This document shows positions 1,267-37,762 of a stretch of 38,973 nt of DNA, piece by piece. The notes under the pieces were generated by a model. That model saw nothing but the letters and a program-made list of their open reading frames with translations, ran no database searches and was not told the DNA's origin. The DNA is from a virus. The translations under genes were made by a program, and so were the position numbers. Position 1 is the stretch's first letter, and the number at the start of each line of letters is the position of its first letter. Location of the stretch: positions 1-38,973 of the IMG/VR virus record IMGVR_UViG_3300007276_000114; one strand, written 5' to 3'.

Positions 1267-3462
1267 TTAATTTCCTTGGAGTGAGTCAAAGATACTTCCT
1301 TGACTTTTAAATTTACTAGTCATTGCCCTACGTCCTAAGGCATCTTTTTCAAACTGTTTATCATTCATAAATTGGACTTGTAACCGTGTATATTTCTTTA
1401 GTACATAGGACCCTGCTGCCTTACGGGTTTCGGTTAGAAGTGCTCTTAATTTGTATTTTTCTTCTTCCTCTGGCAACTTTCTGAGAGCTTTCATTCTAGG
1501 ATGGACGTGTTCTTTGTTTAGTTCAGCCCATTTAGTTTGAAAATCATTAGCTTCCTCGTCTGATAACTGCATTCCCAAGTAACTTTCTGTAGACTCAGCT
1601 CCTTTTAAACTTATATCTAATTCAACAACTCTTCTAGTAATTGGGTCAGTTTTCTCTGATACTAATGTAGAAGTTCTTATTGGTAATGTGAGAGCCTTAA
1701 GTGTATCTCCAGCTTTATGTAGAATATGAGAGGCTCCCAAGTGTAAGTCAGCATTACTTTCCATTCCTGGGTGGAACGTAGCATTACCATCATAGTTTAA
1801 CTTAGGAAATTTAGTTTTAGAGAACCCTGGAATCTCCTCTACAAAGTTCTCATAACCAAGTTTCATTACTTGTATGAACTTTTTATAAACAACATCCAAT
1901 ACCTCATCTCCCGCCTCACCTACTGAGGGTAAATCAACATTTAAGTCTCTAGTAGAGTCCATTCCTTTATTGATACCTCGTCTAAAAGAACCATAGAATG
2001 TACCTAGAGGGTTTAACGGAGTAACAGCAGTCTTTATCATTCGTTTCATGAATCTAGGATCACCAGATACACCATCAACAAAGATAGCTACACCCTGTAA
2101 ATAGTGCCTGTCAGAGATTACATGAGCTAGTGCAAATACCGCATCGGATAATGATTCTTGGTATGCATCAAATAATTGTGAGGTAGTACCAAATTCATCA
2201 GCATAACCATTAATATCAACAAAAGACTTGGCAAGTGTTGCTAAGTTTGCTGACGTTAATAGGAAGACTGAAATTGGATCAGCCTTATTAATAGGAGTAT
2301 ACTGTCCTGTCTCAGAATCATACCAGCTGTTAGGCTGTATTTGAGCATCTCTCCATCTTTGAGCTAGTACTGGGTCAGTAGGGGCAGCTCCAGTGATAAG
2401 ACCTGACATAGCAAGGCCTATACCTGCACTATAAAGCGTTAATCCTGTAGCTAACTTAGCCTCTGCAAGCTGTTGGGCAGCAAGTCCCTGCTCTCCCTTC
2501 ATCGCAGAAACCACATCTTGACTAAAGCTTCTTAGTCCAGGGGTTCTCTGTCCTACAAAGTTAAGTAATTGTACTGGAGTTTTAAAGAAAGGAACGAATA
2601 CTTTACCAAGTCCCGTAGGATCATTCTGTAATGCTTGATTGATACCCTTCTGGAAGCCCGTCTTCTCTATTCTTTTTTTGGTAAGCTTATCTACTTCAAT
2701 TCTATCAGGTAAATCATTCGTGAATGTGTTGATGTTTGCAAACTCTTGAGCCTGTTCTCGTATCTCTCTGGGGGTATTAGCGTTCAGTTCACTGGTAATG
2801 TTACGGACTTGATTAAAATCATTAAGAGTCTTGGGGTTTCTACCTAGTCTTCTTAGTGCTTCTCTGTGTATAAGAGCATTTTTCTGTCCTGCATAGTTAA
2901 CCATCTTAAGAGCTTCATCAGAAGCAAGTAGTAATTTACCAGGATAGTTAACTACATCCCCTACAAAGTCTATAAACTTGGCAACATTTCCTCCTGCTCC
3001 AAAAGCTTCACTTGATACTGCTCTTTTTCTTGGGTTTACAAAGTCAGTTTTAGCTGCAACAGCCTCAAATGTGTCGGCTTTCATTACTTCAACGAACTTT
3101 TTAAGTGATTGAGGGACCGCATCCATCATCCCCTTAGCTAAGATATTAGCTTCTTTAAACGATACACCACCCATTTCATCTCTACCTGCGTTTCTTAATG
3201 CTGCATAGCCCCTTTCAAAAATGGAGGAAGTTATAGAAAAAGCAGTCCCTGCTAAGTTAGATACAAAAGTAGATGGCCTAGAAAGCAAGCCATTAATATA
3301 GATTTCAAGTAATGCATTCTTTGATCTAACGAATAGGCTATCTCTAAAATAGGAAGCTACTGCTCTAACGGACTTACTATCACCAGAAACCGTAGTCTTT
3401 AGTTGCTGTCTAGCAAGATCGTCTAATTTTCCTGTAGGTGGTATACATACGTCTTTTGCCAT
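1267..3462 (-). CDS. Internal virion / ejection protein, C-terminal part of a gp16-like protein
   Basis: A 731-residue protein with no catalytic motif I recognise. Near residue 59 it has LLSRPSTFVSNLAG, a signature I associate with the large ejected inner-core proteins of podoviruses, followed by helix-rich sequence and short hydrophobic stretches near residues 340-360 (LTLYSAGIGLAMSGLITGAA). It lies between another large internal protein and the tail fibre, where T7 has gp16. Together with the upstream 658-residue gene it matches the size expected of gp16 without its transglycosylase domain. ATG at 3462 is two bases after the upstream stop and in a different frame. The ribosome site is weak, suggesting translational coupling. 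The role (inner core and DNA ejection) is inferred from position and size. Confidence 0.7.
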   Translation of the reverse strand: MAKDVCIPPTGKLDDLARQQLKTTVSGDSKSVRAVASYFRDSLFVRSKNALLEIYINGLLSRPSTFVSNLAGTAFSITSSIFERGYAALRNAGRDEMGGVSFKEANILAKGMMDAVPQSLKKFVEVMKADTFEAVAAKTDFVNPRKRAVSSEAFGAGGNVAKFIDFVGDVVNYPGKLLLASDEALKMVNYAGQKNALIHREALRRLGRNPKTLNDFNQVRNITSELNANTPREIREQAQEFANINTFTNDLPDRIEVDKLTKKRIEKTGFQKGINQALQNDPTGLGKVFVPFFKTPVQLLNFVGQRTPGLRSFSQDVVSAMKGEQGLAAQQLAEAKLATGLTLYSAGIGLAMSGLITGAAPTDPVLAQRWRDAQIQPNSWYDSETGQYTPINKADPISVFLLTSANLATLAKSFVDINGYADEFGTTSQLFDAYQESLSDAVFALAHVISDRHYLQGVAIFVDGVSGDPRFMKRMIKTAVTPLNPLGTFYGSFRRGINKGMDSTRDLNVDLPSVGEAGDEVLDVVYKKFIQVMKLGYENFVEEIPGFSKTKFPKLNYDGNATFHPGMESNADLHLGASHILHKAGDTLKALTLPIRTSTLVSEKTDPITRRVVELDISLKGAESTESYLGMQLSDEEANDFQTKWAELNKEHVHPRMKALRKLPEEEEKYKLRALLTETRKAAGSYVLKKYTRLQVQFMNDKQFEKDALGRRAMTSKFKSQGSIFDSLQGN

Positions 3463-3464
3463 AA

Positions 3465-5441
3465 TTAGATATCACAAAATCTTATTGGAGGTTCTTGGTT
3501 TCTGCCAGCATCTGTTAGTTGACTACCCTCTTTCTCAAAGTTAGTAGCTTGGTCATCCAGTGACTTGGTTATTCTCTGGATATTACTTGCTTGAGATGCT
3601 AGTGCTTCACTTGTTTTCACATCTGGATAGAGTATTCTCATTGCAATTTGAGTCCTAAGAGAATTAACATCTTCTAAATCATCTCCCCTAGATGTCTTCT
3701 TAAAGGTTCTTAATAGATCACTAGCTTCGTAGGATAGACCACTAGCAGCTTCTACAGTCGATGCAGACTCTACTACAGCCCTTCTCATAAGAAATTCATT
3801 GTTTCCAGTAGGATCTATATTGTATTTTTCTACAGCTTGCATAGCTTTCTTAGTACGCAACATAGCAAAGGCCTTAGCAGCTACAACATAAGCCTTAGCA
3901 TTCTTTACGTTACCTACAGTCTTCTCTAAACTCTTTTGCATTTCGTCTGCTGATACTCCTGCAAAATCAGCAAAATCAGCTACAAGTTCTTTCTCATCTA
4001 AGTTCTTAGGGAGTCTATCAGACATAGCCTCAGCTACATTAAATAGTAATCTCTTCATACTCTCAGGACCAATAACCTTATCCAAATTGAACGGGATACT
4101 AAGATCATCTATAGCTCTCATTTCCCCTTTACCAGCTCTCATAAATACATCTACAAGGTCGTCTAGTTCGTCAGGGGAAAATGATTTCTCAGGATCAAGA
4201 GACTCTAGGTTACGTTCAGGTGACGCAGAGGAATTATATTCATTTTTAGCTCCTCGTAGTTTACTAGCAGCATGTATTTCACTAGTTACCTGTGAGTTAG
4301 ACTTAGTACCATCAGGATTAAAATCAAACTCTAACTGTTCTCTTCTTAATGTTTCTTCACCACCAGGAAGACCATCAAATAAATCCTTCTTAGCTTCTGG
4401 TGATAGGTTTTGTACAGCATCAGCTATTGTCTCTGTGTCTTCAGCTATCGCTTCTCTTACTTCAGCTTCTAGTTCTTTAGGTTTTCTTGCCTTAGCTATA
4501 CCACGTCCTATTAACCGGATTACTTTCTCAACTAATATTCCACCAACAGCATTAGTAAAGGCACTCTTAGCTCCCTGCATAGCTCTTGAGTCCTCTGAAT
4601 TAAAACCTACAAATTCCTTCAACATCTGTCCTAGAGTACTATCCTCTGAGATTAAGTGTGTCTGTATTAAGATGTCAGCTAAGTTTCCATCCTCAGGTTT
4701 GATAGCTAAGGCATCAACTGGGATACCTGCTAGAACACCATTTACAGAACCTGCTAGTACCTTATTGGTACGCATTAACTTTCCGAATTTTGTCAATGGT
4801 GACTTGGTTCTTAAACTAGGCTTAACAGCACGTCTGGATTTAGCAGCAACTTTAAGAGCCGTTGTAGTAACCTTAGACGCTACACCCACAGCAGGAGTGA
4901 ACGGACCAACAAACTCAATAATTCCAGTAGCAACTCGTTCAAAGGTAGTCTCTGGAGACATACCCGTTTCCTCAGGGGTAAAGAGTAAATCACCATCACT
5001 ACCTAAACCCTCTAGTTCTACCCCAAAATGGGTCTTAACAAAATCCTTTACTCCAAATATCTCATTAAGAGCTTCAGAGGTATTATTAATAGCATTGGTC
5101 AGTCCCGCTGATGTAGACTTGAATAGAGCATTCTCTTTGATGGTGTCATTCATTTGACTAAGAACACCTGGAGCATTCCTACGGAGTGCCTCAGCTTCAG
5201 CAGCAGAACGCTTCACTTGTTCTTTTTCAGCTAATAATGTTTGTTGCTCTAACTCTTGTTCCCTAACATCTTCTTGTAGTCGAACTCTACGCATAGCGTC
5301 ATAGTCAACCCTAAAGTCATTAGGAGATAACTGTGTAACAAGACCTGTTTCAGGACTAGTAACTTGTAACAGCTTTTCCTGTTGTTTCTCAGCTGTTCCA
5401 ATAGCGTCCTCTGTGGCTTGTTCTTTAAACCCTAAAGGCAT
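3465..5441 (-). CDS. Internal virion protein, N-terminal part of a split gp16-like protein
   Basis: A 658-residue protein, strongly charged and helical at the N-terminus (predicted coiled coil around EDVREQELEQQTLLAEKEQV). Small-residue-rich and hydrophobic segments follow near residues 170-245 (IIEFVGPFTPAVGVASKVTT and AGSVNGVLAGIPVDALAI). There is no transglycosylase motif. Its ATG overlaps the stop of the preceding gene (TAATG), so translation is probably coupled. With the 731-residue product of the next gene it covers about 1390 residues, close to T7 gp16 after its lytic domain is subtracted. I infer an inner-core or ejection protein. No specific motif proves homology, and a lineage-specific structural protein is an alternative. 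Confidence 0.65.
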   Translation of the reverse strand: MPLGFKEQATEDAIGTAEKQQEKLLQVTSPETGLVTQLSPNDFRVDYDAMRRVRLQEDVREQELEQQTLLAEKEQVKRSAAEAEALRRNAPGVLSQMNDTIKENALFKSTSAGLTNAINNTSEALNEIFGVKDFVKTHFGVELEGLGSDGDLLFTPEETGMSPETTFERVATGIIEFVGPFTPAVGVASKVTTTALKVAAKSRRAVKPSLRTKSPLTKFGKLMRTNKVLAGSVNGVLAGIPVDALAIKPEDGNLADILIQTHLISEDSTLGQMLKEFVGFNSEDSRAMQGAKSAFTNAVGGILVEKVIRLIGRGIAKARKPKELEAEVREAIAEDTETIADAVQNLSPEAKKDLFDGLPGGEETLRREQLEFDFNPDGTKSNSQVTSEIHAASKLRGAKNEYNSSASPERNLESLDPEKSFSPDELDDLVDVFMRAGKGEMRAIDDLSIPFNLDKVIGPESMKRLLFNVAEAMSDRLPKNLDEKELVADFADFAGVSADEMQKSLEKTVGNVKNAKAYVVAAKAFAMLRTKKAMQAVEKYNIDPTGNNEFLMRRAVVESASTVEAASGLSYEASDLLRTFKKTSRGDDLEDVNSLRTQIAMRILYPDVKTSEALASQASNIQRITKSLDDQATNFEKEGSQLTDAGRNQEPPIRFCDI

Positions 5442-26794: not shown

Positions 26795-27058
26795 CTATAG
26801 TTCTCCTTGAATGAATTGTTCTGCTCCCCCGAATTCGGGTATTTTCAATCTCTTACATTCACTACGCATACTATCTGCTGCTCCCATCAAATCTGTAACT
26901 GTCTTCTTACCATGAAACTTGTTATTGTACATACAATTGAATACAGCCGAAACAATCGCATACTTCTCAGGCTTAGAAAAGTGCTCTAAGACCTCCATCA
27001 CCTTAATCATACCCTGTGATACTTTTACTACATCAGCATTAGCTGAAAAAGAACTCAC
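26795..27058 (-). CDS. Small helical protein between RNA polymerase and SSB
   Basis: An 87-residue protein, all helical by pattern (VVKVSQGMIKVMEVLEHFSK, PEKYAIVSAVFNCMYNNKF). No motif or family that I recognise. GTG at 27058 is the start because GAGGAGG lies nine bases upstream inside the RNA polymerase gene; the first 20 bases overlap that gene. The stop is immediately followed by the SSB ATG. Position is where T7 has small class II genes such as gene 2, whose product inhibits host RNA polymerase, but there is no sequence basis for equating them. Confidence 0.68.
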   Translation of the reverse strand: MSSFSANADVVKVSQGMIKVMEVLEHFSKPEKYAIVSAVFNCMYNNKFHGKKTVTDLMGAADSMRSECKRLKIPEFGGAEQFIQGEL

Positions 27059-29459
27059 TATTCATTACCTCCTCTATCTTCAGTTCACCATATTTAGGGA
27101 CAGGAGGCAACTCGATATCTGTCATCTTCTGAACCTCAGCTTTGAAATTATGTAAAACATCCTCTGAATATATTTTGACAAACTCTTGTCTAATAACTTT
27201 AGATAGTATCTCCATGTCGCAAGCATGAGTGCCAAACGAATCATGAACCACCGCAAAGCTCTCGATACCATGCCGTCTCCTAGCTCCTAATATTGTAAAC
27301 ATTAAATGACTTGCATCATAGCTATGAACAAAGTTAGGGGCAATCCCATTACTCTGTCTATCCTTATTAAGTTTGTCTCCATCAAATGAATTAGAGAATA
27401 AGGAAGCAGCTTGTCCATTTATAACTGTCCTAATTTGTTTGACAGTAGACTTCATGTACTTCTGCTTGACTAAGAGTCCTATGGGTGTAGTCCAATACAG
27501 GCACTTATTTTCTTTAGCTAGTATCTTAGCTATACTTTGTAGCCAAGTCATGATCTCCTGAGCAGAGCTAACTGTAGTGCGTATGCCCTCATAGATATGA
27601 TATGCCAAGTACTTACAATGGGGCCAAAGACTGTTATTCTTATCCATGTTCTTGAACTTAATTCCCTTGTCCATCTGCTTCTTAAGTTCCTCGTAGATCT
27701 GTTCCCGCATGCCATATAGAGTAGAGCCATAAGGTGTAGTCATAACAGGACGTTTAACCATAGATCTATTTACGTCCTTACCATTGTTCCATAAATCACT
27801 ACCGTCACTATCATCCAACTCTATTCTTTTTACTACCTCTTGCCTAACGATATCGTAGATGTCTGCTGGTACATCATTAGGTAAGAGATTGACAGCTTTC
27901 CCTCCGTTCCCATCCCTTAGCATACCAGCAAAGTGCTGGAGACCGTTGCAACTTCCATCTACTGTCACAGGGATAGAGGAGATAAATTCTGGGTTGTTGT
28001 TAGCTTTAGTCCACTCAATACAGAAACTAAGAAACTGCCAAGGCTTATCAGCTTCCATCCACCAAGGCCATGCTTTAGGATCACTCCCACACTGCCTGAT
28101 AGACTTTTCATTATGTATAGTCCATTCATACCTATCTTCTAAAGACACCTTATCTTCACCAAAGCAGTTAGCTCCATGTATAGCAAGCCATGCTAGTCCG
28201 GTATCCCCAAGCTTCTTCTTTTCTGCAAACTTAAGTAAGCCTCTTGCACTATCCTCCCCCTGAGGATTGAGGAACGCAGTATTAGCATATAGTCTTCCTC
28301 TGAAATCAATGGTGTGAGGAAAATAGAATCTTTTTTCATCTTTAAACTTTCTTGCCATCCACATAAGTTGTGCGAATTGTATGCGTTTGGTTTTTCTTCT
28401 AACATTGTCTCCATGCATGAAGGTTGCTTCTCGTTTCCATTCCACTTGTTCATCTACTGTTCCTTCTTTCGGATATGGTCTAGGCATTGTCCTTTCTTCA
28501 AACTCAGGTATCACATTGCAGTGTATCTGGTTGGTGAATAAGTAATCCATTACACTAAACACTTCTTTGTTTATAGTCCATGCTGTTTCTTGAACGGCAT
28601 TAACAGCTGCTAGGAGCTCTGATAGATTTGTACTCTCTAGCTGTCGTTTATAGGCTACATCATTAGTCTTAATTAAGTGCATCTTAGTATAGACGTAATA
28701 TCCACCATCATAGATATTAGTCCACATTCTAGGTGAGATGATGCACGGCATCTTAACAGGATTGAGTAGCTCACAGACACTGTTCTTACCATCAATCCAC
28801 TCTAAGGACTTCTGAGTAGCTTCAAGCATGAAGGTGGTTCTTCTTTCCTGTTTGGTGGAGGTATACTTCTTGATCTCAAAGATCAGAGTAGTTTCAGCTA
28901 TGAGGCCTATTAGTAGTTGTCCAAGTTCTACCTTGATGGTAGTGGACCAGTTCCCCCACTCTATGTCAGCCTTCATAGAAGAGTGTACTAGGACCCTCTT
29001 TTGTTTCCTGTAGTTAGTAGTTCTCTTAGATAGGTCTCTGACTATTGTACCAAACAAGGCTGGATTAGTTTTCTGGAAATAGCGAAAGCGAGCCTCGTCT
29101 TCAATGAAACCCCCAATCTCTTGTGCAACTTTAACAAGTCTAACGGGTGTCGATAGGTGATTGACACATCCCTTAAGAGCAAGGAAAGCCTGTACAGTAG
29201 GATCAAGTTCTGTGAGTTTTTCGAGTGCTTGAGCTGAGTAGTTAAGAGGTTCCCCTTTACTAGACTTGAAGATAAGATCCTCAATGCTGCGTGATACTTT
29301 AGCAACGGACTTTCTGATAAACTGAATCCCTGGAGGTGTTGTGGCTTCATGTTTCCCCTTTCTGGCAGCAGCATTCTCATCTCTATATCTCTTGAGACCT
29401 AGCTTTACCATCTCAGCTTCTAATAGTTTCTGCCTATTTAACACTACTTCAACCCCCAC
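27039..29459 (-). CDS. Single-subunit DNA-directed RNA polymerase, T7 gp1-like
   Basis: 806 residues (T7: 883). Catalytic residues are all present: D501 in TVDGSCNGLQHFAG (T7 D537), K569 and Y577 in VKRPVMTTPYG (T7 K631 and Y639, same spacing) and D740 in VVHDSFGT (T7 D812). IDFRGRLYANTAFLNPQGED and IAPNFVHSYDASHL are strongly T7-like, and the C-terminus EFFFS parallels DFAFA. The shorter length comes partly from a missing segment between D501 and K569. The specificity-loop region (about 670-700) differs from T7, so promoters will differ. Start is GTG 29459 (GTG 29444 possible), overlapping the oxygenase stop. It transcribes middle and late genes. Confidence 0.97.
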   Translation of the reverse strand: MGVEVVLNRQKLLEAEMVKLGLKRYRDENAAARKGKHEATTPPGIQFIRKSVAKVSRSIEDLIFKSSKGEPLNYSAQALEKLTELDPTVQAFLALKGCVNHLSTPVRLVKVAQEIGGFIEDEARFRYFQKTNPALFGTIVRDLSKRTTNYRKQKRVLVHSSMKADIEWGNWSTTIKVELGQLLIGLIAETTLIFEIKKYTSTKQERRTTFMLEATQKSLEWIDGKNSVCELLNPVKMPCIISPRMWTNIYDGGYYVYTKMHLIKTNDVAYKRQLESTNLSELLAAVNAVQETAWTINKEVFSVMDYLFTNQIHCNVIPEFEERTMPRPYPKEGTVDEQVEWKREATFMHGDNVRRKTKRIQFAQLMWMARKFKDEKRFYFPHTIDFRGRLYANTAFLNPQGEDSARGLLKFAEKKKLGDTGLAWLAIHGANCFGEDKVSLEDRYEWTIHNEKSIRQCGSDPKAWPWWMEADKPWQFLSFCIEWTKANNNPEFISSIPVTVDGSCNGLQHFAGMLRDGNGGKAVNLLPNDVPADIYDIVRQEVVKRIELDDSDGSDLWNNGKDVNRSMVKRPVMTTPYGSTLYGMREQIYEELKKQMDKGIKFKNMDKNNSLWPHCKYLAYHIYEGIRTTVSSAQEIMTWLQSIAKILAKENKCLYWTTPIGLLVKQKYMKSTVKQIRTVINGQAASLFSNSFDGDKLNKDRQSNGIAPNFVHSYDASHLMFTILGARRRHGIESFAVVHDSFGTHACDMEILSKVIRQEFVKIYSEDVLHNFKAEVQKMTDIELPPVPKYGELKIEEVMNSEFFFS

Positions 29460-31665: not shown

Positions 31666-31800
31666 GTCATTTATTTGACGCACAGTCATATATTTGACAG
31701 TCATTATATTGACATGTCACTAATTTGACAGTCATATCTTTGACGCGTCACTATCTTGACATAGGTGTCAAGTCCTTGACTAATCAGTCAGATATTTGAC
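31666..31800. repeat. Array I: eight GTCA-N6-TGAC palindromic units
   Basis: Eight 14-bp units fitting GTCANNNNNTTGAC start at 31666, 31685, 31700, 31716, 31731, 31747, 31767 and 31787 (examples GTCATTTATTTGAC, GTCACTAATTTGAC, GTCAAGTCCTTGAC). Spacers are 1-6 bases, so starts are 15-20 bp apart. The outer GTCA/TGAC arms are invariant and the middle is variable and AT-rich, the pattern of a dimeric protein's binding site with two half-sites on about the same DNA face. The seventh unit is a longer palindrome (GTCAAG..CTTGAC). The first unit is identical to a unit in the array at 35.15 kb. Function is unknown: operator cluster or replication iterons are the main possibilities. Confidence 0.88.
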
Positions 31801-33292: not shown

Positions 33293-33985
33293 TTATATTT
33301 TCTCCTTAAGCATTACAAGTGAATCCCCTTGATGATCATCCAACCATCTAAAGTCACTGATATCACCATCGGTAAAAGAAGAACACTTATCTTTTAATAA
33401 TTGGACCTCCCAACTATCTTTTTCTTTTTGTATAACTGCTACGTTATAACCAAGCCTTAACGCCTCCAATGATTCTTTGATGTTACTAGGCTGAGTCTCA
33501 GTCGCATCTATATAACTATAAGTCAAGTGGTAGTTGGTGAAAGGATTGCTTTTTAGTCTTTCAAGACTCTTTGTATAGTCCCAAAATTGGACCTCGTAAA
33601 AATGATTAAATATTACACTTCCTTTAATAAAGTACTTCTCATTGTCCCAGTCGATATCTGAAAACCCATTTAATCTAATACAACACTCCTTCCCCTTCTT
33701 TAAACTTCTCTTAATTTGATTATTTATTTCTTTTTCAAGCTTCAACATAAAAGATGGAGTATCAGATAATAATAAATCAACTCGTTTTTTCCTCCCTTTG
33801 ATAACCGTTTCAGGGTAGACCTTAGCAAAGCCTTTAAAGGATAAACAATTAGAAATACAGTTCTTATAATAGGGATTATCACAAACATGTTTAGATGGTA
33901 ATAATTGAAGTATGGAAGCTTCATAGTTCGGGAATAGCTTTAAGGTTTTATCTATCTTGGTGTTACTTGTAAGTAGTTTATTCAT
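33293..33985 (-). CDS. Conserved phage/plasmid protein of unknown function (DUF7227-like)
   Basis: About 230 residues. The pattern matches a widespread phage and plasmid family that I recall as DUF7227 (name unverified): LLPSKHVCDNPYYKNCISNC (a three-Cys cluster near the N-terminus), ECCIRLNGFSDIDWDNEKYF, EVQFWDYTKSLERLK, NYHLTYSYIDATE, LGYNVAVIQKEK and FRWLDDHQGDSLVMLK. The Cys cluster may bind metal. The biochemical role is not known to me. ATG 33985 overlaps the preceding stop (TAATG). ATG 34003 is an alternative. It lies two bases before the methyltransferase gene, so it is made together with it. Confidence 0.75.
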   Translation of the reverse strand: MNKLLTSNTKIDKTLKLFPNYEASILQLLPSKHVCDNPYYKNCISNCLSFKGFAKVYPETVIKGRKKRVDLLLSDTPSFMLKLEKEINNQIKRSLKKGKECCIRLNGFSDIDWDNEKYFIKGSVIFNHFYEVQFWDYTKSLERLKSNPFTNYHLTYSYIDATETQPSNIKESLEALRLGYNVAVIQKEKDSWEVQLLKDKCSSFTDGDISDFRWLDDHQGDSLVMLKEKI

Positions 33986-34164
33986 TAGTACAATCGACTC
34001 CATTTCTGGGTTATAGGATTGAAAGCAAACTCTCGTTTACAATCTTTACATATCAACCATACATCTTGATTATTATTATAACTTCCGGTCCGGTCTAAAG
34101 TCCCCTCACAGTCCTCACAGACATAGGTAGGAACCAATGCATCTAATTCAGTTTGATTTAACAT
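33985..34164 (-). CDS. 59-residue zinc-ribbon microprotein
   Basis: A complete frame whose product has VCEDCEG and LICKDCKREF, two CxxC pairs about 19 residues apart, the layout of a zinc ribbon. The ATG overlaps the end of the preceding membrane microprotein, and the stop overlaps the start of the next gene (TAATG), typical of a compact early operon. Likely a nucleic-acid- or RNA-polymerase-contacting early factor, but no target can be read from the sequence. Confidence 0.65.
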   Translation of the reverse strand: MLNQTELDALVPTYVCEDCEGTLDRTGSYNNNQDVWLICKDCKREFAFNPITQKWSRLY

Positions 34165-34308: not shown

Positions 34309-34503
34309 TTAATAGATTTGATTCATTAGTTGCTCAATCATAGCTTGGTGTCCTCTTGCAATATCAGTCGCTTGATTCTCATATTCGTATATGCTTTTAT
34401 CACGCCACTTTAAAGCTTTAATCGCTTGTTCCTTGACTTGCTTAACCGTTGTACAATCTCTGAATAGTCCTTTATAATCACTCTCATCTCTTAAGTATGC
34501 CAT
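34309..34503 (-). CDS. First early gene: small helical protein of unknown function
   Basis: A 64-residue, charged helical protein (KQVKEQAIKALKWRDKSIYE, then ENQATDIARGHQAMIEQLMN). It is the first gene after the long control region, the position of T7 gene 0.3, but has no resemblance to Ocr. GAGGA lies nine bases upstream of ATG 34503, and a sigma-70-type promoter candidate sits 36 bases upstream. Position predicts an early host-takeover or anti-defence protein; this is inference only. Confidence 0.6.
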   Translation of the reverse strand: MAYLRDESDYKGLFRDCTTVKQVKEQAIKALKWRDKSIYEYENQATDIARGHQAMIEQLMNQIY

Positions 34504-34802: not shown

Positions 34803-34864
34803 TGGTATGAGTGTTGCATGTATAAACTAAAAAAATAAATATAGGTAACAACAAACAAACGTGC

Positions 34865-34899
34865 ATACTTTTAGATAACTCATGTATACTTTTAGATAA
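34865..34899. repeat. Direct repeat ATACTTTTAGATAA
   Basis: Two exact copies of ATACTTTTAGATAA at 34865-34878 and 34886-34899, 21 bp (two helical turns) apart. They lie between the AT-rich part of the control region and the paired ATAGTCAC motifs. Function unknown; spacing suits two proteins bound on the same DNA face. Confidence 0.65.
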
Positions 34900-34912
34900 A
34901 TTCCAGGTTTTG

Positions 34913-34975
34913 TGTGACTATTAGTATGCTGTCTACTAATAGATACGCATAATAACTCGGTGTGACTATTAGTAT
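34913..34975 (-). promoter_or_regulatory. Two ATAGTCACA motifs, candidate phage RNA polymerase promoters
   Basis: Minus strand ATACTAATAGTCACA occurs twice, at 34961-34975 and 34913-34927, 48 bp apart with 15 identical bases. The TACTAATAG part is also found in the second control region (near 31495) and at 35048-35062. All point in the direction of the genes. T7-family promoters usually end in a CAC(T/A)-containing core, so these are reasonable candidates, but no copy is seen before the capsid gene. Confidence 0.35.
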
Positions 34976-35047
34976 ACACCCCAAGTTTGGCACGATACTT
35001 GCAGGACTAACAGGCCTTGTGAGTTTGGCACGATAATTGCATGCCTC

Positions 35048-35062
35048 AGTGCCTATTAGTAA
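35048..35062 (-). promoter_or_regulatory. ATAGGCAC motif within the 38-bp repeat
   Basis: Minus strand TTACTAATAGGCACT, then GAGG. It sits in the linker between the second and third sigma-54-like copies, pointing with the genes. Same core as 31926 and 34788. Candidate site for the phage RNA polymerase; not proven. Confidence 0.33.
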
Positions 35063-35086
35063 TGGCATGATACTTGCAGGCCTGAT

Positions 35087-35101
35087 AGTGCCTATGAGTT
35101 T
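35087..35101 (-). promoter_or_regulatory. ATAGGCAC motif within the 38-bp repeat
   Basis: Minus strand AAACTCATAGGCACT, then ATCAGG, giving GGCACTATCAGG, which resembles the CACTATAGG core of T7/K11-type promoters. It lies in the linker between the third and fourth sigma-54-like copies. Confidence 0.33.
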
Positions 35102-35151
35102 GGCACAATACTTGCAGGCCCCGACTGGCATGATACTTGCAGGGACTATGA

Positions 35152-35213
35152 GTCATTTATTTGACATGTCAATATCCTGGCGTGTCAATTAAGTGACGTG
35201 TCAATTATTTGGC
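35152..35213. repeat. Array II: four GTCA-N6-TGAC/TGGC units at 16-bp period
   Basis: Units GTCATTTATTTGAC (35152), GTCAATATCCTGGC (35168), GTCAATTAAGTGAC (35184) and GTCAATTATTTGGC (35200) are spaced exactly 16 bp, with AT, GT, GT between them. The first is identical to the first unit of array I at 31666. Two units end in TGGC instead of TGAC. It begins nine bases after the last sigma-54-like copy. Same element as array I at the other side of the early block, so probably bound by the same protein. Confidence 0.85.
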
Positions 35214-35294
35214 AGGGCCTATGGGGGGAATTTTTCGTCTTTACCATATTACGTACCACTTCACATTATTGTAACAAATTATTCTCTTATAGGT

Positions 35295-35339
35295 TAAGTG
35301 GGGGTATTTAACCTTACTAGGATAACTGGGGGTATTTAA
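35295..35339. repeat. Direct repeat TAASTGGGGGTATTTAA
   Basis: Two 17-base copies, TAAGTGGGGGTATTTAA at 35295-35311 and TAACTGGGGGTATTTAA at 35323-35339, differ at one base and start 28 bp apart. They lie in the right part of the control region, close to the end of the late module. Possible packaging or end-processing signal by position; nothing proves it. Confidence 0.65.
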
Positions 35340-35518: not shown

Positions 35519-35710
35519 CTACAGCCCCTTATGGTCCCTGATCTCTCCTTTAGAGGAATCATAGGGCATTCTAGTACTCAGTTTGGAAACTCCTTGTCCT
35601 TTTAGTGATTTACCTGGAGGACTACTAGCTGACGGGGTAGGATTACGCATCCCAAGGGTCGAGTTGAAACCCCCATTTGCCAAGTCTCCTGATATCTTCT
35701 TTGCTTTCAT
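35519..35710 (-). CDS. Small Ser/Pro/Gly-rich protein
   Basis: A 63-residue, basic, low-complexity protein (KKISGDLANGGFNSTLGMRN, PTPSASSPPGKSLKGQG) that is probably disordered. AAAGGAG precedes ATG 35710, and the next tiny gene follows by three bases. No family recognised. It lies downstream of the large terminase, where T7 carries genes 19.2-19.5. Confidence 0.62.
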   Translation of the reverse strand: MKAKKISGDLANGGFNSTLGMRNPTPSASSPPGKSLKGQGVSKLSTRMPYDSSKGEIRDHKGL

Positions 35711-35913: not shown

Positions 35914-36113
35914 TAAGCTCCTTTAGCATTAAATACAACACATCCCATGTTAACTTCAACAGGCACAGGTTGCTTTTGTTGTTCAGCTTGTTGAAATATT
36001 TCTCTCATACGTTTAATACAATCTTGCTCACTGTGAAAAGTTTGACCTATTTCAGCATGTCTTACAGATACAGGATCACCCCCTAGGTGGATTATCATTA
36101 GTAACCAAATCAT
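35913..36113 (-). CDS. Small exported or membrane-anchored protein after the large terminase
   Basis: About 66 residues from ATG 36113 (GTG 36125 is possible). A hydrophobic N-terminus (MIWLLMIIHLGGDPV) precedes a soluble part with two Cys (EQDCIKRMREIFQQAEQQK, VPVEVNMGCVVFNAKG). I recall similar small proteins with 'IHLGGDP' and 'P V..NMGC' in other marine phages, none with a known function. It follows the terminase with a four-base overlap, and its stop overlaps the next start. Confidence 0.68.
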   Translation of the reverse strand: MIWLLMIIHLGGDPVSVRHAEIGQTFHSEQDCIKRMREIFQQAEQQKQPVPVEVNMGCVVFNAKGA

Positions 36114-37762
36114 ACCTTCACCCACACATGTTCATCCTCCATAGTTTCGTTAACGGAACTCATAAACTCTTTACATCCTCTTTCAATCTCATTGCTCCTC
36201 CTATCTTGGTACTCTTGTTCTCTATTGGCCTGTACTTGTTCGGTCCAATAGGCAGCACCCATAGCAAGGACATCAATTCTATCATCATATTGAAGACTAC
36301 CCTTATCACGGGTCAATCTAGTCATCTGATAGAACAATTGTCTCTGTGGATGCTCCTTAGACTCCTCATAGTCCCTCAGAACCTCTGAGTAGCTTATAAC
36401 AAGCTTATGAGTGCCTATTAGGGGCTCTAGGACATCTAGTATCCTATGTTCTTTCTGTTTGTTGTGTTTTATCTCTTCTACAGTACAAGGATAGTACTCA
36501 TGCAGTACTGGCTTGAATAACTGAGTGTACATACCGTCACCAAAGTTATCTTCTATCTCGATGATGTTAGGTTTGTACTCAGCAGCCAATTGAGCAAGTT
36601 GTTTCAACGTATCCCGACTATAACCACCTTTAAACCCACCTATCTTTAATACAAACACCATACCATTAAGAAACTTAGTGATACAGTATCCTGTCTCATC
36701 CTGTCCTCTACCACTAGGATCTATGTGCATGGCACTACCAGAATACTCATAGTAATCACTAGATACCTCAAATGGCTTATAAAAGTAGTCACCAGTGAGT
36801 CCTACGGCATTGAGTTTATCATCTCTCTCACCTTTAGCCCATAGTATCCTACCTGGAGCCTTATCTATATCTAGTGGTACTACTAACAGTTCCTCTAGTT
36901 TCAGTGGGTATCGTAATGCATCCTCACCACTTGTATCCAGCATAAACTGTCTAGCAAATCCTGCTTTACCATAGGAAGCCTGACGTTCACTTAGATCCAA
37001 TGCATCGAACCTCAGAGGGTCTGTAGGGTCTCCTATAGGCAGATCCATCTGACTTATGAAAGGAGCTAACCTTTCTTTATAGAAGCTTGTGAGTCTCTCT
37101 GAGGGCTTTAGAGCAGGCCATATACGGCACTGATACCCTCGTTCTTGTAAATTAGTATAAAGGCTCTCTTCTACTTGGGGTGTTCCTAGGTATACTATAC
37201 GTCCTACCTTAGGCATGACTACCGCATCAAATTCTTTTACTACTTCACCTAGCTTTTCCCTCATAGTCTGTGTTAGGGCATTACTAAGTACTTCTACGTC
37301 ATCTGCTATAATGATGTGAGCCCTGCTACCGACAATCTGCCCAGTAATACCAACAGACTTGACAGAAGGAGCATGGGAAGCACGAGACGGAGCAACGTCA
37401 AAGGCCACATTGGAGTTACGTTGATCTTCTCGTGCTCGTAGGTGTTGGAGGATTGGCATTTCGTGGATAATACGTTTTGTGAAGGTACTGAAATCATCGG
37501 CCCTCTGTTTGGATGCTGAGATTACTAAGAATTTAAGTTGTGGATCAACAAGTAACTTCCATACGACAAATGCAGAGGTAATCCAACTCTTACCTACACC
37601 TCTAAAAGCTTGAATAATGAGGCGTTTGGGTCCATGTTGTAGGTACTCTGCGATATCATATTGTATTGGAGTAGGATCTGGTAGGGCCAAATGCTTCCAA
37701 GCAATATATAAGAAGTTCCTGAAATCTTCTTTAATGTGGTCTAACTGATTCTTCTGGTTCAA
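36110..37762 (-). CDS. Terminase large subunit, T7 gp19-like
   Basis: A 550-residue DNA-packaging motor (T7 gp19: 586). ATPase motifs are QAFRGVGKSW (Walker A, about residues 51-60) and AHIIIADDVE (Walker B). APSVKSVGITGQIVGSRAHI is nearly the T7 sequence. Nuclease acidic residues are in HIDPSGRGQDETGY, IEIEDNFGDGMY and YDDRIDVLAMGAAY. It cuts and packages concatemers through the portal. There is no ATG at the start: TTG 37762 is the best fit to family length, overlaps the small terminase by 32 bases and has a weak ribosome site, so coupling is likely. Confidence 0.96.
   Translation of the reverse strand: MNQKNQLDHIKEDFRNFLYIAWKHLALPDPTPIQYDIAEYLQHGPKRLIIQAFRGVGKSWITSAFVVWKLLVDPQLKFLVISASKQRADDFSTFTKRIIHEMPILQHLRAREDQRNSNVAFDVAPSRASHAPSVKSVGITGQIVGSRAHIIIADDVEVLSNALTQTMREKLGEVVKEFDAVVMPKVGRIVYLGTPQVEESLYTNLQERGYQCRIWPALKPSERLTSFYKERLAPFISQMDLPIGDPTDPLRFDALDLSERQASYGKAGFARQFMLDTSGEDALRYPLKLEELLVVPLDIDKAPGRILWAKGERDDKLNAVGLTGDYFYKPFEVSSDYYEYSGSAMHIDPSGRGQDETGYCITKFLNGMVFVLKIGGFKGGYSRDTLKQLAQLAAEYKPNIIEIEDNFGDGMYTQLFKPVLHEYYPCTVEEIKHNKQKEHRILDVLEPLIGTHKLVISYSEVLRDYEESKEHPQRQLFYQMTRLTRDKGSLQYDDRIDVLAMGAAYWTEQVQANREQEYQDRRSNEIERGCKEFMSSVNETMEDEHVWVKV

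Follow-up and report, generated by a model that had tools for sequence, protein, structure and literature searches.

Clustered sites matching the sigma-54 consensus in a T7-like phage and in many uncultured phages: a possible sponge or holding site for host RpoN

Why would a T7-like phage gather, in a single noncoding stretch, a series of what read as bacterial sigma-54 (-24/-12) promoters, all of them pointing against its genes? The question arises in the window, the whole stretch of DNA analysed here: a 38,973-base autographivirus contig in which T7-type RNA polymerase, primase-helicase, DNA polymerase, head-tail connector and terminase are all encoded on the minus strand. A pattern scan of the window finds five exact matches to TGGCAYRNNNNTTGCW (TGGCAYR-N4-TTGCA) on the plus strand, at 34988, 35026, 35063, 35101 and 35126, with copy-to-copy spacings of 38, 37, 38 and 25 bp. 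The first-pass annotation had described five copies on a period of about 38 bp; the five copies are exact, while the period is true of four only. The array lies in a noncoding stretch between an early-side ORF (34503) and the small genes of the terminase end (down to 35519). It had also been claimed that the sites point rightward against the genes, and this is borne out: the credible genes nearby are all on the minus strand, and the sites face away from the early ones. The features are given below, the ORFs of the window having been called mechanically.

27039 to 29459, minus strand: T7-type RNA polymerase (phrog_414, E = 6.7e-247)
34309 to 34503, minus strand: first ORF of the early side, upstream of the array in the direction of the sites (ORF list; no PHROG match)
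34803 to 34818, plus strand: weak sixth sigma-54 site, TGGTATGAGTGTTGCA; 14.8 bits, 45th percentile of in-vivo sites, rank six in the window
34988 to 35003, plus strand: sigma-54 site 1, TGGCACGATACTTGCA; exact match, 21.7 bits, tops all 87 in-vivo sites
35026 to 35041, plus strand: sigma-54 site 2, TGGCACGATAATTGCA; exact match, 21.9 bits
35063 to 35078, plus strand: sigma-54 site 3, TGGCATGATACTTGCA; exact match, 20.3 bits
35101 to 35116, plus strand: sigma-54 site 4, TGGCACAATACTTGCA; exact match, 20.9 bits
35126 to 35141, plus strand: sigma-54 site 5, TGGCATGATACTTGCA; exact match, 21.5 bits
34988 to 35150, no strand: whole array, a conserved island in the relative L127 (84-98% identity over 35000-35149)
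35145 to 35172, minus strand: possible sigma-70 promoter toward the early genes, TTGACA-16-CATAGT, beside site 5 (consensus scan only, 10/12)
35519 to 35710, minus strand: last small ORF of the late side, antisense to the direction of the sites (ORF list; no PHROG match)
36110 to 37762, minus strand: terminase large subunit (phrog_38, E = 1.9e-112)

The resemblance to sigma-54 sites goes well beyond a consensus. GG and GC cores stand at the exact spacing (TGGCAYR-N4-TTGCW), and the whole sites fit the motif seen in vivo. When up to one mismatch is allowed, the window contains seven matches to the sigma-54 pattern against 1.06 expected, a number reached in 0/100 shuffles. Ranking of the whole window with a scoring matrix made from 87 in-vivo sites, 50 of E. 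coli (PMC4591121) and 37 of Yersinia (PMC7657599), places the five copies and the site at 34803 in the top six ranks. The five main copies score 20.3-21.9 bits, at the 99th-100th percentile of this in-vivo set, and the next-best window match after the sixth site scores 12.3. Several strong-scoring sites, of predicted high affinity, are present together. The search pattern fixed some bases, and the positions left free could be used as a test across phage arrays: they follow the in-vivo sigma-54 motif with r = 0.79, as good a fit being found in 1/2880 permutations. Sites with one mismatch are 17 times denser beside arrays than over the remainder of those contigs, and they have almost never lost GG or GC. 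Whenever a site near an array of another phage departs from the consensus at position 4, the base is T (12/12 cases).

Among the relatives, L126 has the same array as the window. L127, with a terminase 99% identical to that of the window, retains the five sites, within an island whose flanking intergenic sequence is for the most part only 18-58% identical. Its nine motif changes (9/80) affect position 4 (C-23) four times, C having become T in four of the five copies, position 6 twice, and positions 7, 8 and 11 once each; none touches GG, GC or TTGCA, and by matrix score the sites still rank in the 79th-99th percentile of the in-vivo set. The sigma-54 identity was to be doubted, according to the first-pass annotation, if relatives lost the GG/GC bases and kept other parts of the unit. 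L127, the sole informative relative, retains every GG and GC, yet between the sites, too, little has changed (4/74, against 9/80 within sites); the idea thus passes without being refuted, though not with an outright win. With the in-vivo-site scores and the free positions in unrelated phages, this conservation strongly supports the proposed identity. An ORF that spans the array on the minus strand (34892-35131) was considered as a coding repeat and rejected: its start codon is gone in L127, and the uneven steps from copy to copy (37, 38 and 25 bp) break any reading frame across the array. None of the remaining terminase relatives, among them 42 that extend for 1.4 kb or more on the downstream side, showed the array; on this comparison, it is a recent or labile trait of the window's lineage.

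Is this a curiosity of one lineage? Such arrays had been thought rare in phages, and this turns out to be wrong for uncultured ones. In viral contigs the two-site pattern and the three-site pattern each give at least 120 matches, when two-site control patterns give four (5-bp spacer) and two (halves swapped). By contrast, 257 Gb of bacterial and archaeal genomes yield nine matches to the three-site pattern. One of these (L309) lies on a relative of the array phages, close to L267 and L061, and two (L310, L315) look like exact repeats overlapping ORFs; as a raw count, 8/9 of these bacterial records encode RpoN, and the one that does not is among the exact-repeat cases. Among the matches listed, 152 loci have at least three sites and fall into 68-69 protein clusters, that is about 68 phage groups, by a crude clustering in which short contigs may split true groups. 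Tandem arrays of the putative sigma-54 motif are widespread in phage contigs. None was seen in 20 isolate or annotated records of cultured phages (SAR11, Roseobacter, SAR116, Pseudomonas, Rhizobium phages and others), and blastn with concatenated arrays returned one trivial match only. Elsewhere, a 94-kb phage contig (L067, 1421-4450) has 16 sigma-54-like sites scattered over 3 kb, most on the same strand and, in the first part of this stretch, about 50-60 bp apart, and a seven-site array (L051, 1663-1855) encloses two DnaA-box-like words (TGTGGATAA).

Among the matches listed, 60 of the 152 loci have mixed orientation and convergent pairs lie 17-21 bp apart; tandem packing starts abruptly at 25 bp, where the pattern permitted 21. 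A helical-phase test of site spacing did not single out a helical period, the signal being similar or stronger at periods from 10 to 13. The largest cluster comprises distant kin of HMO-2011/HTVC103P-type podoviruses with arrays at the late/early junction, and there the uniform arrays point toward the early genes by 32 to 2. Outside that cluster, arrays in tandem gaps run with the genes in three cases, against them in four and in mixed fashion in 11: their orientation is unconstrained. A count over all loci of orientation relative to the nearest ORF (65 co, 18 against) was set aside as evidence, because a divergent gap yields 'co' for either orientation.

What, then, would bind these sites? 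The gene for RpoN is absent from 51 array records (0/51), so that a phage-encoded RpoN was rejected; the same records show one marginal match to an activator domain, and no gene for an enhancer-binding activator was found in the window phage. No protein family but terminase recurs widely beside the arrays, within the limited flanks available, and a phage-specific binder common to the array phages was rejected, there being none among the recurring flanking families. We consider it very probable, from the motif and its variation, that these are recognition sites for RpoN, a protein able to bind its sites when polymerase is absent, though some tenfold less strongly (PMC7657599).

The explanation that we favour, with a probability of roughly 45%, is that the array holds host RpoN in silent complexes, a cluster of sites acting as a sponge; titration of RpoN was among the options offered by the first-pass annotation. 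Host RpoN, either alone or within the RNA polymerase holoenzyme, would occupy the sites and would remain there in closed complexes, which we propose to be silent because neither a phage-encoded activator nor a rightward gene was found; binding without firing is favoured because the sites of the window face no gene. With six sites in each genome, and genome copies increasing as the phage replicates, the array would then make a sponge or holding site, damping RpoN-dependent host genes or freeing core polymerase, rather than a set of promoters. The sites, their sigma-54 grammar, their conservation in L127 and their spread across phages are supported by the sequence; we infer from them that the host has RpoN, that the sites are bound in the course of infection and that they act as a sponge. 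In favour of this reading we count the in-vivo-like scores, the conserved cores, the 68 or so groups, the controls and the rarity in bacteria; the missing RpoN gene, the single marginal activator, terminase as sole recurrent neighbour and the mixed orientations; and the ability of RpoN to bind alone (PMC7657599). Against it we count the 32 to 2 bias of the largest cluster, as promoters would show (shared descent could also produce it), the 42 close relatives without an array and the stretches between sites, as conserved in L127 as the sites themselves.

That these are real sigma-54 promoters, firing rightward under an active host activator and yielding an antisense or leader transcript across the small late genes and terminase, seems unlikely. 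Their grammar is near-perfect for the purpose and the largest cluster is oriented as required, but five promoters within 150 bp would overlap, the window phage has no activator gene that we could find, and the array points at no gene or known RNA: the ORF list has no plus-strand gene downstream, Rfam gives no match, and the terminator-like hairpin found 35 bp downstream on the plus strand is weak. The antisense RNA that had been suggested earlier thus gains no positive support, and the array as a set of antisense promoters is weakly supported. For the arrays in general, the mixed loci, the convergent pairs down to 17 bp, the 25 bp floor and the free orientation outside the largest cluster argue in the same direction. 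Less probable still is a regulatory roadblock, where parked RpoN holoenzyme would block or tune sigma-70 transcription running leftward toward the early genes, whose expression would then depend on host RpoN. A sigma-70-like promoter (35172-35145, minus strand) does adjoin site 5, and silent RpoN binding is reported to alter opposite-strand expression in Yersinia (PMC7657599); this promoter, however, is a consensus match, in a region where promoter-like matches (13) are only modestly in excess of shuffles (7.8, sd 3.1).

Another protein, of phage or host, might bind a motif that just happens to look like the sigma-54 consensus, as one could suspect from the conserved stretches between sites in L127, from position 4 having changed in parallel in four copies and from the GTGCCTATTAGT-like words that precede several sites. 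We think this slightly less likely again, since free positions and tolerance of mismatches track sigma-54 in about 68 phage groups and no common candidate binder appears in the limited flanks. In T7-like genomes the ends fall in the interval from terminase to the early genes, where the array lies, and L128, an 85%-identical relative, has in the same late/early gap (3220-3720) an unrelated family of repeats, CAGTTACTGTGAG-like words. Genome-end repeats serving replication, concatemer processing or packaging, in a role comparable to that of the short repeats of T7 ends, would account for this, but would leave the sigma-54 grammar unexplained, as well as the presence of this motif in phages that are built differently; we hold this the least probable of the alternatives. 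End repeats were not found in the linear IMG/VR contig of the window phage.

How does a sponge or holding site for RpoN compare with known systems? Bacterial sigma-54 sites share bases, spacing and tolerance of change with the array (PMC4591121, PMC7657599), and many are likewise silent or antisense, as seen by ChIP-seq in E. coli and Yersinia (same references). The array differs in bringing six sites together in one phage control region with no downstream gene, and bacterial genomes are almost without three-site arrays. A chromosomal locus, datA, titrates DnaA. The array resembles it in its clustered sites of high (here predicted) affinity, able to soak up a regulator, and differs in being phage-borne and in its sigma-54 motif, where datA is chromosomal and directed at DnaA. 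The short terminal repeats SRL and SRR of T7 also lie near the late/early junction, yet they are much shorter than the array repeats and without sigma-54 grammar. The uncultured HMO-2011/HTVC103P-related podoviruses (L036, L102, L118 and others) share motif and late/early location with the window; their arrays, unlike that of the window, face the early genes, often in mixed orientation, and no T7-type polymerase was found in those of the phages that were searched. Indeed, a search with PF00940 finds that polymerase in the window alone among 51 array records. We found no sigma-54 decoy in a phage in the open PMC literature; a Pectobacterium phage protein has a weak HHpred match to sigma-54, in a paper that reports no sites (PMC7693777).

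Takeover of the host by phages is usually explained by proteins. Because near-perfect clusters of RpoN sites occur in dozens of unrelated environmental phages (some 68 groups) and hardly ever in bacteria, they suggest that phages bind up or borrow host RpoN, engaging at the level of DNA the sigma factor of nitrogen, motility and stress. RpoN controls flagella, which are receptors for some phages (PMC11877940). A little more tentatively than for the window itself, we propose that many unrelated environmental phages may use clustered RpoN sites as DNA sponges or holding sites, a strategy of host takeover not described before, of which the window would be a T7-like example keeping its own polymerase. 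If the need for RpoN is confirmed, the arrays would serve as a signature by which to recognise uncultured phages whose hosts carry RpoN. The nearest isolates of the window phage, about 34-37% identical in polymerase and 51-54% in terminase, infect Pseudomonas, SAR11, rhizobia or roseobacters; SAR11 and cyanobacteria are not known to have RpoN.

Finally, the late/early gap gathers different repeats in different relatives, the array in the window and CAGTTACTGTGAG-like words in L128, and it contains further repeats in the window. Palindromic, operator-like words resembling TTGACRYGTCAA occur three times just right of the array (35161-35204) and twice at 31709-31751, the right-hand set being largely broken in L127. 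Array II, just downstream, was dropped as a site for an RpoN activator, being broken in L127, and ACTAATAGNCAC was rejected as a promoter of the phage RNA polymerase, its close copies clustering around the array and not upstream of genes. Other direct repeats of the gap (34862-34975, 35286-35339) comprise TTATCTAAAAGTATRCA twice on the minus strand, GTGTGACTATTAGTAT twice and a 28-bp unit twice. An early protein without assigned function (33293-34003, phrog_1617) has distant relatives in several array loci, L061 and L094 for example. Between 35250 and 35799, window and L127 are mostly 96-100% identical, with neighbouring sequence at 43-80% and sharp edges, which suggests recent recombination.
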